This document shows positions 51,236 to 56,181 of a stretch of DNA of 64,000 nt, in pieces. The number at the start of each line of letters is the position of its first letter. The first letter of the stretch is position 1. A program made the translations under genes and the position numbers. This DNA is from Desulfobacterales bacterium (lineage in GTDB: Bacteria; Desulfobacterota; Desulfobulbia; Desulfobulbales; JAGXFP01): NCBI GenBank assembly GCA_024637225.1, contig JAGXFP010000029.1:18660-82659 (forward strand), in the 5' to 3' direction. The notes below the pieces were generated by a model. The model searched no databases. It had not been told where the DNA came from and worked only from the letters and a program-made list of their open reading frames with translations.

Positions 51236-52294
51236 TTATTGATCGGCGACTTCATCGGCAAAAAAACACTGGGGATCTTCGGCCAGGAAATCCTCGCCGC
51301 CCCGGGACAGCGACCCGGCATAAGCAATCGCCCGGCAGCCCCGGCAGAGAGCCCAACGGGGGCAAGCGCCGCATTTGTTTTTATAGGCCGGCCGCTCCCG
51401 CAACTGCTCCAGAACCGGCGAGCTCGCCCAGATTTCCCGCAGGGAATCATGCCTGACATTACCGATCACCACCGGCAGCCGCCGGCAAGGGGTGACCCCA
51501 CCGTCCGGCAGAATAGTCAGCCCGGAAACCCCGGCCGCGCAACCGCCGGTCGCAGCCATTCCGCAATCGTTCCATTCCACCATATTGCGCAGCTGGGAGG
51601 CAACCGGGTCACCGGTAACGATTTCCAAACCTTGGACGGGACGGGCAAAAATTGCTTGATAGATTTCTTTAAGCCGAACAGGTTCGATCATCTGATCGAC
51701 CATCCCCAGGCCGCGGCCGGACGGAACCAGCCTGGAAAAGCCGAGCCGCTGGACCTTCCAGGCGCCGGCGATATCGATCATCTCGTCAAACTTCTCGGCA
51801 TTGATCTTTGAGAGGGTGGCGTTCAGGGTGACTCGCAGGCCGGCGGCCAGCAGATGGCGAACCCCTCGACGGGCAGCCTCGAAACTTCCCTTGCCCCTGA
51901 TCGATTCATGGATCTCCTGCGGGCCTTCGAGACTGACCTGGACCCCTTTCACCCCGAGATCCGCCAGGGTCGCCGCCTTCTTTTGATCCACCAGGGTGCC
52001 GTTGGTCAGCAGATAGGTCGCAAAACCCCGGTCGCGCATCTCAGCGAGGATCTCGAAAAGATCCCGGCGCAGAAATGGTTCGCCGCCGGTTACATTTAAA
52101 CTCGGTGAGAACTCCAGGGCATAGGTTTTTTGCCAGGCCTGGAGCATTTCATCGATCTCGCCGAGCACCTCGCCGACCTCGCTCCGGGAAAGCTCAGCCA
52201 TTGTCACACCGTTCTGGTAGCAGTGGCTGCAACTAAGGTTACACCTTTCCGTCAGATGCCATTGAACGAAGAATTCCTGCTGGGGGCTGATCAT
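51236..52294 (-). CDS. Radical SAM/SPASM domain protein (peptide-maturase-like)
   Basis: HLTERCNLSCSHCYQ; NVTGGEPFLR; C-terminal KCGACPRWALCRGCRAIAYA...DPQCFF. Confidence 0.9.
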   Translation of the reverse strand: MISPQQEFFVQWHLTERCNLSCSHCYQNGVTMAELSRSEVGEVLGEIDEMLQAWQKTYALEFSPSLNVTGGEPFLRRDLFEILAEMRDRGFATYLLTNGTLVDQKKAATLADLGVKGVQVSLEGPQEIHESIRGKGSFEAARRGVRHLLAAGLRVTLNATLSKINAEKFDEMIDIAGAWKVQRLGFSRLVPSGRGLGMVDQMIEPVRLKEIYQAIFARPVQGLEIVTGDPVASQLRNMVEWNDCGMAATGGCAAGVSGLTILPDGGVTPCRRLPVVIGNVRHDSLREIWASSPVLEQLRERPAYKNKCGACPRWALCRGCRAIAYAGSLSRGGEDFLAEDPQCFFADEVADQ

Positions 52295-52388
52295 CGGTTT
52301 TCCTGTTTTTCCGGATAATTTTGCCAGGGGTCCGTTGTTTTGAGGACGGAGCGGCAGTCATTTATTCCAGGGTTTTCAGATAATAAGC

Positions 52389-52434
52389 AAAGACGGATGC
52401 AAGGATCCCGAAAGGGCCTGGTGCATCCGTCTTT
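52389..52434 (-). terminator. 13-bp perfect hairpin between the 34-codon ORF and the radical SAM gene
   Basis: AAAGACGGATGCA ... TGCATCCGTCTTT. Confidence 0.75.
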
Positions 52435-52480
52435 TAAGGCGTCGTTGCCGACCGGCAACTTAATCGGATTTTCATCCCTT

Positions 52481-52585
52481 TCATTTGTGGCAGATGCCGC
52501 CGGGATAATCTTTAGCCGCCTCGCTCATTCTGGTCCAGAAAGCGGCTTCCTTGGCCAAGGCCTCTTTACTCGGAAGCTTCTTCAT
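52481..52585 (-). CDS. 34-aa peptide, candidate RiPP precursor
   Basis: MKKLPSKEALAKEAAFWTRMSEAAKDYPGGICHK*; GGAGG RBS 8 nt upstream; upstream of the radical SAM gene on the same strand. Confidence 0.6.
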   Translation of the reverse strand: MKKLPSKEALAKEAAFWTRMSEAAKDYPGGICHK

Positions 52586-52744
52586 AATGAAATCCTCCAT
52601 CCGGTTATGCCACGGCAGAACGCCATGACTATACCTACAGGATCGGCTAAAGGAAGTTTCCATGTCAATCGGAAAAAGTAATCGGGTCAATCGAAATCGG
52701 GCAGGAGCATCGGGCAGGAATAAAGGGATCACAAATCAGGATAT

Positions 52745-52819
52745 AAAAAAAGGCCAGCTCTTCGGGGAAAGAACCGGCCTCACTAAAGGAGAAAAAAGAA
52801 TGATGATTCTTTTTCAGTT
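52745..52819 (-). ncRNA. Candidate ~75-nt sigma-54-dependent sRNA
   Basis: Begins ~12 nt after a sigma-54 promoter; hairpin AAAAAGAAT-CATC-ATTCTTTTT; unpaired CUCCUUU; terminator with T7. Confidence 0.65.
52751..52780 (-). terminator. Terminator of the candidate sRNA
   Basis: AGGCCGGTTCTTTCCCCGAAGAGCTGGCCT followed by T-run on minus. Confidence 0.8.
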
Positions 52820-52828
52820 CACCTAGTA

Positions 52829-52846
52829 TTGCAATGGCTGTGCCAA
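52829..52846 (-). promoter_or_regulatory. Sigma-54 (-24/-12) promoter
   Basis: Minus strand TTGGCAC-AGCCA-TTGCAA matches TGGCAC-N5-TTGCA exactly. Confidence 0.85.
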
Positions 52847-53020
52847 TAAAAACAAAAACCCTGAGAACAGAAGAAAGATACAGCAATTCAGCAAGTTACT
52901 TGGTTATGACAAAAAGCGTCAAGTCCGGGCGCCTGGTACAAATATTTAGATTATAGCCCCCGTGAACTTTAAATTTTGTACCAGGGGGTCTTAAAAAGCC
53001 CGCCACCTTTTCCGCTTAAC

Positions 53021-53166
53021 CAGTGTCTGTCCATAAATGAGGATTTTTGTCCGAGAACGAGAAGCAAGGATGTCGGAAAAGCGCAGCGTACTTGGGTACG
53101 TGAGCACTTTTCGACTCTGCAGCGACGAAGTTATCGGGCAAAAAGACCATTTATGGACGGGCACTA
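53021..53166. repeat. MITE-like palindromic element, family B copy 2 (inverted)
   Basis: cagtgtctgtccataaatgaggatttttgtccgag...gggcaaaaagaccatttatggacgggcacta. Confidence 0.85.
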
Positions 53167-53691
53167 ACTTTCCAGAAACCGCTCCAGCCGGTCGCCCCAA
53201 ACCTCATAGCCCCGGGAAGTGAGATGGACCTCATCCTCCAGGATATCCGCCAGGGGTGCGCCGTCGCTGTCGACCACCGCCGCCCAGACGTCGAGGTAGC
53301 GGGCGCCGGCGGCGGCTGCCAGGCTTTGCAGGGAGGAGTTCACCCTGGCCACGGTATCGGGAGCCAGGTAATTCAGCTTCATGGGCAACAGGCTGTTGAC
53401 CGTCAGCACCGTCTCGGGATAGGCGTTTTTGAAAGTGGCCAGAATATCGGCGTAGGCCCCCTGAAAATTGAAATTCTCCATGGCGACATTGTTGGTGCCG
53501 ATCATTATAAGGACCAGATCGGGCGCTTCATGGTTTTCGACAATCGCGGCGGCCCGGCTCCTTAACTCTTCGACCGATTCACCGGAGCGGCCCAGATTCA
53601 AGACCTCCCTGCCGGGAAAGCGGCCCTGCCAGTCGAAAAACTCGATCATCGAATCGCCGACCAGCATCAGTTTGTTGAATTTATCCGCCAT
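53164..53691 (-). CDS. SGNH/GDSL-type hydrolase
   Basis: LMLVGDSMIEFFDW...NLGRSGES...LVLIMIGTNNVAM...DEVHLTSRGYEVWGDRL. Confidence 0.85.
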   Translation of the reverse strand: MADKFNKLMLVGDSMIEFFDWQGRFPGREVLNLGRSGESVEELRSRAAAIVENHEAPDLVLIMIGTNNVAMENFNFQGAYADILATFKNAYPETVLTVNSLLPMKLNYLAPDTVARVNSSLQSLAAAAGARYLDVWAAVVDSDGAPLADILEDEVHLTSRGYEVWGDRLERFLES

Positions 53692-54072: not shown

Positions 54073-56181
54073 TTAGTCATCCCCGGCATCGGGCCTGGAG
54101 ATCAGCACCAATGTCGCCATCGCCGCCAATTCGAATTCGTTGCCCGTAAACAGCGGCGCCTCCTCTTCGGGATAGATATCGCCGGGGGTCTCGGCGCCGC
54201 TGTTCAGGAGCAGGTGCCAGCAGCGGCCGGGGGGCAGGGTTGGAGTCATAATTCGGGCGTTGGCCGAATCGCCGTTCAAAATAACGAAGAAATCGTCATC
54301 CCGGGGCTCGCCGACCGCGACCCCGTCCAGCATAAACCCGAGTATCCTGCCCTCGTGGGACCAATCCGTCTCCCCGGGTCGCAGGGACTGCCAGTGGATC
54401 TCGTGGGGGTCAAGCCCGCCGGCGTCCGGGAAAAACTCCTCCCGCCGGAAAATAGGGTGTTTTTTACGCAGCCCGATCAGCAGGCGGAAATAGCGGAGCA
54501 GATCGCGGTTGCTCTCGGCCAGCCGCCAGTCCAGCCAGCTGATTTCATTGTCCTGGCAATAGGCGTTGTTATTGCCCCGCTGGCTGCGGCCGAACTCATC
54601 GCCGGCAACCAGCATCGGCGTTCCCTGGGAGAGAAAGAGGATGGCCGCGAAGGAGCGAATCCGCCGCCGGCGGAGTCTGTTGATTTCGCCATCGTCGGTC
54701 TCGCCCTCGGCGCCGCTGTTCCAGCTCAGGTTGTGATTGTCGCCGTCCCGGTTGTCCTCGCCGTTCATCTCGTTGTGCTTCCGGTTGTAGGAGACCAGAT
54801 CGGAGAGGGTGAAACCGTCGTGGCTGGTAATGAAGTTGATGCTGTTAAACGGGGCTTTGTCGTTGTTCTGATAAAGATCGGCGCTGCCGCTGACCCTGGT
54901 GGCCAGAGCCGCGACCCCGCCCCCGCCGCCGTTTATGAAGGCCCGGACATCGTCCCGGTAGCGCCCGTTCCACTCGGCCCAGCGCGGATGGTTGGAAAAA
55001 GAGCCGACCTGATAGAGCCCGGCCGCGTCCCACGCCTCGGCAATGATCTTGGTGTTAGCCAGGATCGGATCTTCGGCGATCTTCTCCACCATCGGCGGAT
55101 TTTTCATGACCTCGCCGTCGGTATCCCGGCCGAGGACCGAGGCCAGATCGAAGCGGAAACCGTCGACATGCATTTCGATCACCCAATAGCGCAGGCAGTC
55201 CATAATCAATTTGCGGACCAGGGGATGATTGCAGTTCAAGGTGTTGCCGCAGCCGGAAAAGTTGAGGTAGTCGCGGCTGTGAGGATCGAGCAGGTAATAG
55301 ATGGAATTGTCCAGTCCCCGGAAGCTGTAAACCGGGCCGTCGGCGCCGCCCTCGGCGGTGTGGTTGAAGACAATATCGAGGATCACCTCGATCCCGGCCC
55401 GGTGCAGGGCCTTGACCATCTCCTTGAACTCCCGAACCTGGTTGCCGTTACGGCCGTTGACCGCATAGGACGCCTTGGGCGCGAAGAAGGAGATCGGACT
55501 GTATCCCCAGAAATTTCGCAGTAATTCACCGGTAAGGGGATTGCGGTTCCGGTTTTCGTTTTCGTTGAACTCGGCAACCGGCAACAGCTCCACCGCGGTG
55601 ATCCCCAACTCCTTCAAGTAGGGAATCTTCTCGACCAGGCCCCGGTAGGTGCCGGGATGGGCGACTCCGGAGGATGGGTGGCAGCTGAAGCCCCGGACAT
55701 GCAGCTCGTAGATGATCGAATCCTGCAGGGGGATATTCAAGGGCTTGTCGCCCTCCCAGTCGAAATCCTCGCAGGCCAGGCAGCCGCGGCGGTGAAAGCC
55801 CCGGGCCGGGCTTTCCGCCCCCTGCCGCACGTAAATCTCGCCCCAGTTCGAGCCGCCGGTCAAAGCCCCGGCATAAGGGTCAAGCAGGAGATCGTCGCCG
55901 AAGCGATGCCCGGCCCCCTCCGGGCCCCAGGGCCCCCTGACCCGATAACCGTAGCGCAGATTGGGATCGAGGTCGTGAACAAGGACATGCCAGATATCGC
56001 CGGTCCGGTTGACCAGCGGATCGAGCTCGATCGCGGCATGGATCTCGTCCCGGCCGCTTTTGAAGAAAAGGAGAGTGACCTCTTCGCCGTGCCTGGAAAA
56101 CAGGGAAAAGTTAAACCCTTTCGGGGTGCGGAAGTTGCCTAGGGGCAGGGGCGCGCCGGGAGTGTTCTTAAGTTTGCTCAT
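54073..56181 (-). CDS. glgX: Glycogen debranching protein GlgX
   Basis: 702 aa; YGYRVRGPWGPEGAGHRF, LDIVFNHTAEG, GFRFDLASVLGRD, FGRSQRGNNNAYCQDNEISWLDW. Confidence 0.94.
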   Translation of the reverse strand: MSKLKNTPGAPLPLGNFRTPKGFNFSLFSRHGEEVTLLFFKSGRDEIHAAIELDPLVNRTGDIWHVLVHDLDPNLRYGYRVRGPWGPEGAGHRFGDDLLLDPYAGALTGGSNWGEIYVRQGAESPARGFHRRGCLACEDFDWEGDKPLNIPLQDSIIYELHVRGFSCHPSSGVAHPGTYRGLVEKIPYLKELGITAVELLPVAEFNENENRNRNPLTGELLRNFWGYSPISFFAPKASYAVNGRNGNQVREFKEMVKALHRAGIEVILDIVFNHTAEGGADGPVYSFRGLDNSIYYLLDPHSRDYLNFSGCGNTLNCNHPLVRKLIMDCLRYWVIEMHVDGFRFDLASVLGRDTDGEVMKNPPMVEKIAEDPILANTKIIAEAWDAAGLYQVGSFSNHPRWAEWNGRYRDDVRAFINGGGGGVAALATRVSGSADLYQNNDKAPFNSINFITSHDGFTLSDLVSYNRKHNEMNGEDNRDGDNHNLSWNSGAEGETDDGEINRLRRRRIRSFAAILFLSQGTPMLVAGDEFGRSQRGNNNAYCQDNEISWLDWRLAESNRDLLRYFRLLIGLRKKHPIFRREEFFPDAGGLDPHEIHWQSLRPGETDWSHEGRILGFMLDGVAVGEPRDDDFFVILNGDSANARIMTPTLPPGRCWHLLLNSGAETPGDIYPEEEAPLFTGNEFELAAMATLVLISRPDAGDD

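Follow-up and report, generated by a model that had tools for sequence, protein, structure and literature searches.

Small RNAs (sRNAs) under sigma-54 control are known in Vibrio, where the Qrr RNAs require Hfq; to our knowledge, sigma-54-driven sRNAs are few and are best known in Hfq-using gammaproteobacteria. In RsaE/RoxS and the alphaproteobacterial ar14, single-stranded C/U-rich stretches target Shine-Dalgarno regions. In Campylobacter jejuni, the RpoN-dependent CJnc230 folds into two stem-loops separated by a 12-nt single strand that contains an anti-Shine-Dalgarno motif, and represses at ribosome-binding sites (PMC11187230). Four sigma-54-controlled ncRNAs under NtrC-type activators have been described in Desulfovibrio vulgaris—downstream of DVU0653, downstream of DVU0679 (Dv_sRNA2), under DVU1419 and under DVU2359; DVU0653 orthologues are reported from just a few Desulfovibrio, and the signature motif of DVU0679 is GAYTGS (PMC3333781, PMC4641369). 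Here, we analyzed a 64,000-nt stretch of DNA (the window) from a member of the Desulfobulbales, the genome of which spans 3.28 Mb in 74 contigs and is 88% complete, and compared a predicted sRNA locus on its minus strand with these systems.

The promoter and the fold of the predicted RNA provide the starting point for this comparison. On the minus strand, TTGGCACAGCCATTGCA at positions 52830-52846 forms a sigma-54 promoter of the -24/-12 type that agrees with the consensus at 12 of 12 defined bases, and it was the sole match when the window was scanned with one mismatch tolerated (0.26 expected); the region 52300-53200 yielded no sigma-70-like promoter. Since transcription from sigma-54 promoters usually starts at a distance of 12 nt, the predicted start site lies at ~52819 on the minus strand, which would give an RNA of ~76 nt. 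The segment 52744-52819 folds with -27.1 kcal/mol (z = -5.1, with none of 200 shuffles equally good) into, in order, a 5' hairpin (GAAAAAGAAU-CAUC-AUUCUUUUUU, 52792-52815), ten unpaired bases, CUCCUUUAGU (52782-52791), that represent an anti-Shine-Dalgarno stretch and the presumed seed, and an intrinsic terminator hairpin (52750-52781). The terminator has a 14-bp stem (52781-52750) and a CCCC loop, followed by a T run that would place the U tract of the RNA up to ~52744. The initial annotation had proposed both this promoter and this succession of hairpin, unpaired stretch and terminator, and both proposals held up in our analysis.

The same annotation had called the RNA an orphan, a label that had to be abandoned because the genome contains four copies: a DNA search identified three further ones, on contigs 64, 43 and 32. 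The sequence TTGGCAC-N5-TTGCA occurs at exactly four perfect sites genome-wide, and these are the promoters of the four copies. Common to all four is an inverted repeat, GGTACAAAA...TTGTACC, of 47-48 bp, with a T(T/A)(G/T)TACC-like right half and an end lying 84-88 bp upstream of the promoter. In the window, this element—absent from the earlier description—is the 48-bp repeat GGTACAAAATTTAAAG...TCTAAATATTTGTACC at 52935-52982 (minus strand), a predicted enhancer (UAS) ending 88 bp upstream of the promoter. Exact GGTACAA-N-TTGTACC sites were found in this genome at three of the sRNA loci and at one unrelated place, the fourth copy being one base off. Other UAS-like sites with one mismatch, in the same genome and in relatives, were discarded; none has a sigma-54 promoter placed as at the sRNA. 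By its layout, the arrangement of promoter and repeat is that predicted for genes under one enhancer-binding protein, and the repeat at 52935-52982 is likely the activator site, to which binding is predicted. The seeds differ between copies, with CUCCUUU in the window copy and a CUUUCCCCC-like sequence in the other three. We also observed that a glycogen-debranching-like gene lies upstream of two of the four copies (54073-56181, minus strand, in the window, and L003 on contig 43), which suggests that the sRNA copies may have spread by segmental duplication. In a related genome (G004, L025:1501-2267), three sRNA copies stand in tandem; every one of them has a sigma-54 promoter and a repeat to itself, and tRNA genes lie downstream.

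To gain a broader view of the distribution of this RNA, we used one model comprising promoter plus RNA (R1) and another comprising the RNA only, without the promoter (R2). R1 identified relatives in 35 of 58 genomes, the window's own included, and R2, at an E-value of 0.01, matched 156 of the 263 genomes searched from the order and 58 of a sample of 396 from the phylum; the R2 match in the window covers 52739-52822 (E = 9.8e-9). When a degenerate DNA pattern was compared with a public collection, the named hits belonged to Desulfobulbales/Desulfobulbaceae or to unclassified Deltaproteobacteria/Proteobacteria metagenome genomes, e.g., JARGFN010000161.1 from Desulfobulbales bacterium C14-07; the relatives named are thus Desulfobulbales, and not the Desulfuromonadales originally suggested. 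Because R2 holds no promoter, the promoter serves as an independent test of the R2 loci. A sigma-54 promoter with at least 9 of 12 bases, including GG and GC/GA, was present at 21 of the 27 phylum-search loci (three of which come from the order), compared with 26 of 4341 background windows (0.6%). The upstream palindrome is also present at many of these 27 loci. In most relatives, the upstream element is a simple palindrome, GTACAAAAAATTGTAC, located ~100 bp upstream; scores of at least 13/16 were obtained at 32 of 50 loci, against 64 of 4181 background windows, and in five of ten scanned genomes all exact GTACAAAAAATTGTAC matches lay at the sRNA.

What the aligned RNAs have in common is a 5' hairpin (variable in sequence), the stretch UCUCCUUUCUCC and the terminator. 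A z-score below -1 was obtained for the 5' hairpin in 21 of 39 relatives, and, over 40 RNAs, 8 of the 9 consensus pairs in the terminator stem show compensatory changes, with the CCCC loop kept. At the seed position, many single-copy relatives carry UCUCCUUUCUCC, the window's family carries CUUUCCCCC-like sequences and the window copy itself CUCCUUU; this position is mostly unpaired in the predicted folds of relatives (mean 0.72, a value in which some sites were misplaced by the script). Conservation of the promoter, the unpaired C/U-rich stretch and the terminator in relatives had been set beforehand as the test of the proposed RNA, and all of these features are kept. Taken together, the alignments and background comparisons make this look like an sRNA family that recurs across the phylum. 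A variant form of the RNA was observed in other orders (L126, L130, L133, L138, L141, L142 and L147); several of these loci carry an extra C-rich stretch, for instance GUUACCCCC, close to the 5' end and ahead of UUCUCCUUUCUCC.

Examination of the genes around the R2 loci pointed to a candidate regulator. A sigma-54 enhancer-binding protein is encoded close by at 8 of the 27 phylum-search loci, versus one among all other loci compared. At seven loci outside the order, an orthologous activator (55-94% identical to the first) lies directly upstream, on the same strand, its gene ending ~0.2-0.33 kb before the RNA. This protein is an NtrC-type response regulator with a receiver-AAA-Fis-HTH architecture (REC-AAA-HTH), which falls near AtoC and NtrC among curated families, below every cut-off. 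In most of the seven loci, the gap between activator and RNA holds one or two copies of the palindrome together with the promoter; several of the seven carry the palindrome in its GTACAA-TTGTAC form. A membrane histidine kinase gene precedes that of the activator, Pfam-confirmed in two loci and with a similar ORF in four more. Neither the window nor the surroundings of the other three copies, out to ~10 kb, contained an activator orthologue, and we infer from the conserved repeat that the same activator may serve the scattered copies of the window's order. A different sigma-54 activator (~42% identical) was found beside an sRNA-like match in genome G437 (L143/L268), with two sigma-54-like promoters nearby; this may be a separate activator-sRNA pair.

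The genes on the downstream side bear on whether the RNA is a regulator in its own right or the 5' leader of a neighboring gene. As a cis-acting leader, the sigma-54 promoter would drive the downstream gene, and the hairpin and terminator would act as an attenuator controlling it. This arrangement would agree with the finding that 24 of 50 order loci have a DUF362 gene next in line and in the same orientation, as is the case for the contig-32 copy; 12 of these 24 also have an aconitase gene ahead of the RNA. However, the downstream genes are unrelated or convergent at the window, contig-64 and contig-43 copies and in many relatives, the terminator is kept with no conserved alternative antiterminator seen, and one genome holds the three tandem copies described above. 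Because the neighbors differ or converge, and because of this tandem arrangement, the RNA most likely functions independently, and a leader function appears improbable to us. The order aconitase-sRNA-DUF362 is itself conserved between families of the order (L024, L026, L028-L031, L033, L036, L039, L049, L060 and L063), and a short-chain dehydrogenase gene often comes next; the DUF362-linked position is probably the ancestral place of the sRNA in the order.

The initial annotation had also attached meaning to the position of the RNA upstream of a small peptide/radical SAM pair. We rejected this link because the downstream neighbors differ at the other copies; likewise, the sister-species copy (L051) has the same upstream neighbor as the window copy and different downstream genes. 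The pair consists of a radical SAM/SPASM protein (51236-52294, minus strand), which scores below all curated NCBIfam cut-offs (best AhbD-like, 188 of 500 bits), and, just upstream of its gene, a 34-codon peptide, MKKLPSKEALAKEAAFWTRMSEAAKDYPGGICHK, with a start at ~52585; together, they represent a possible, uncharacterized peptide-maturation pair.

As to the mode of action, the conserved run of pyrimidines is complementary to an extended Shine-Dalgarno sequence, and it is through this unpaired stretch that the RNA would repress translation. Complementarity alone is weak evidence, because a UCUCC-type sequence complements any good Shine-Dalgarno. The perfect complement, GGAGAAAGGAG, occurs shortly before an ATG at few sites in 20 relatives. 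The recurring candidate target among them is a gene for a Porin_5 outer-membrane protein, with GGAGAAAGGAG before the ATG in three species of one genus and 11-nt or shorter versions of the complement in homologues of other genera. We regard this gene as a candidate—a lead, not a proof—because the leaders share a common descent and because the complement looks like any good ribosome-binding site. In the window's own genome, which contains no close porin orthologue, scanning for GGGGAAAG near an ATG gave 27 sites versus 19 in the reversed control; across the window's genus, such scans were at best slightly above control, with no gene common to the three genomes. Hfq (PF17209) was not found in 58 genomes of the order (the window's own and 57 relatives), with positive controls, an absence that is not absolute because these are draft genomes.

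Drawing on the promoter, the upstream repeat, the predicted structure, the paralogy, the phylum-wide conservation and the activator adjacency seen elsewhere—all of them read from sequence—we consider it quite probable that 52744-52819 (minus strand) encodes a sigma-54-activated, trans-acting sRNA, one of four paralogues, that pairs with Shine-Dalgarno regions. The comparative evidence supports the original proposal of a sigma-54 promoter driving a small non-coding anti-Shine-Dalgarno RNA. In the predicted course of transcription, activator binding, base-pairing and repression, a membrane sensor kinase would phosphorylate the NtrC/AtoC-type response regulator, which would bind the GTACAA-TTGTAC repeat ~90-140 bp upstream and allow transcription by sigma-54 RNA polymerase to begin at 52819; the RNA would end at ~52744, at the terminator. 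The unpaired CUCCUUU (elsewhere UCUCCUUUCUCC or CUUUCCCCC-like) would then pair with the Shine-Dalgarno regions of several mRNAs, perhaps joined in this by the C-rich terminator loop, and the pairing would block translation without Hfq.

Two other readings were weighed against such an sRNA. That a promoter-like site and an ordinary terminator came together by chance, with no gene, deserves a thought insofar as such combinations often arise when a single intergenic stretch is read by eye; yet the four copies and the phylum-wide conservation, with promoter, upstream repeat and activator adjacency, render it scarcely credible, and the conservation refutes it as a complete explanation. The other reading is that the RNA, without pairing to any mRNA, titrates a protein as CrcZ and RsmY/Z do, its C-rich single strands being the binding sites. 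Such stretches occur twice per RNA, in the seed and in the almost invariant terminator loop, several sRNA copies are present per genome, and Hfq was not found, all of which would suit titration. The GGA loops bound by CsrA-type proteins, however, are no conserved feature of these RNAs, the pyrimidine stretch is both anti-Shine-Dalgarno and long (UCUCCUUUCUCC), and CJnc230, an RNA built alike, acts by pairing at ribosome-binding sites (PMC11187230); we therefore view protein titration as an unlikely role.

Beyond the trans-acting sRNA itself, we tentatively put forward a wider scenario, which we hold to be somewhat less than evenly probable. One ancestral module of sensor kinase, sigma-54 activator and sRNA may have spread over the Desulfobacterota, serving there as a global post-transcriptional switch that does not depend on Hfq—a separately evolved analogue of LuxO-Qrr. 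In the window's lineage, the RNA gene would have become detached from the activator and expanded into four copies whose seeds diverged, and outer-membrane porins would be among the targets. The family, absent from Rfam 15, can be recognized in many environmental anaerobes from the combination of promoter, upstream site and RNA, and it occurs in an order where the search for Hfq found none. As the presumptive kinase and activator adjoin the sRNA in several lineages, the sensor, activator site and output RNA of one circuit can be named at once—a regulatory circuit directly testable in culturable relatives.

Among described systems, Vibrio Qrr1-5 (LuxO/sigma-54), invoked in the initial annotation, proved an apt comparison as to control logic: in both, a genome holds several paralogous sRNAs with separate -24/-12 promoters and intrinsic terminators, and the upstream sites for one NtrC-type response regulator that Qrr has are, for the present RNAs, predicted. 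In contrast to Qrr, which needs Hfq, the RNA described here belongs to an order in which Hfq was not found, and its upstream site is different; cmscan against Rfam, at gathering and relaxed thresholds, returned no family and no Qrr model match. RsaE/RoxS and ar14 resemble it in their C/U-rich anti-Shine-Dalgarno single strands, although their Rfam scores stayed below threshold (25.3 of 79 for RsaE and 29.4 of 58.8 for ar14). CJnc230 likewise has two stem-loops flanking an anti-Shine-Dalgarno single strand, a likeness for which we claim no homology; whereas CJnc230 is processed from the flgE transcript, the present sRNA has its own promoter, an upstream repeat and several copies. The D. vulgaris ncRNAs share the NtrC-type activators, and two of them lie directly downstream of the activator gene, as in our seven loci; compared by description only, they differ in that DVU0653 orthologues occur in few Desulfovibrio and DVU0679 has another signature motif. 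The sigma-54-controlled sRNA is thus a kind already known. Apart from the D. vulgaris RNAs, which may or may not be related to it, the present family does not appear to be described in Rfam 15 or in the papers searched (a set with most subscription literature outside it); the same goes for the site upstream of the RNA, for the increase in copy number with divergence of the seeds and for the distribution over the phylum.
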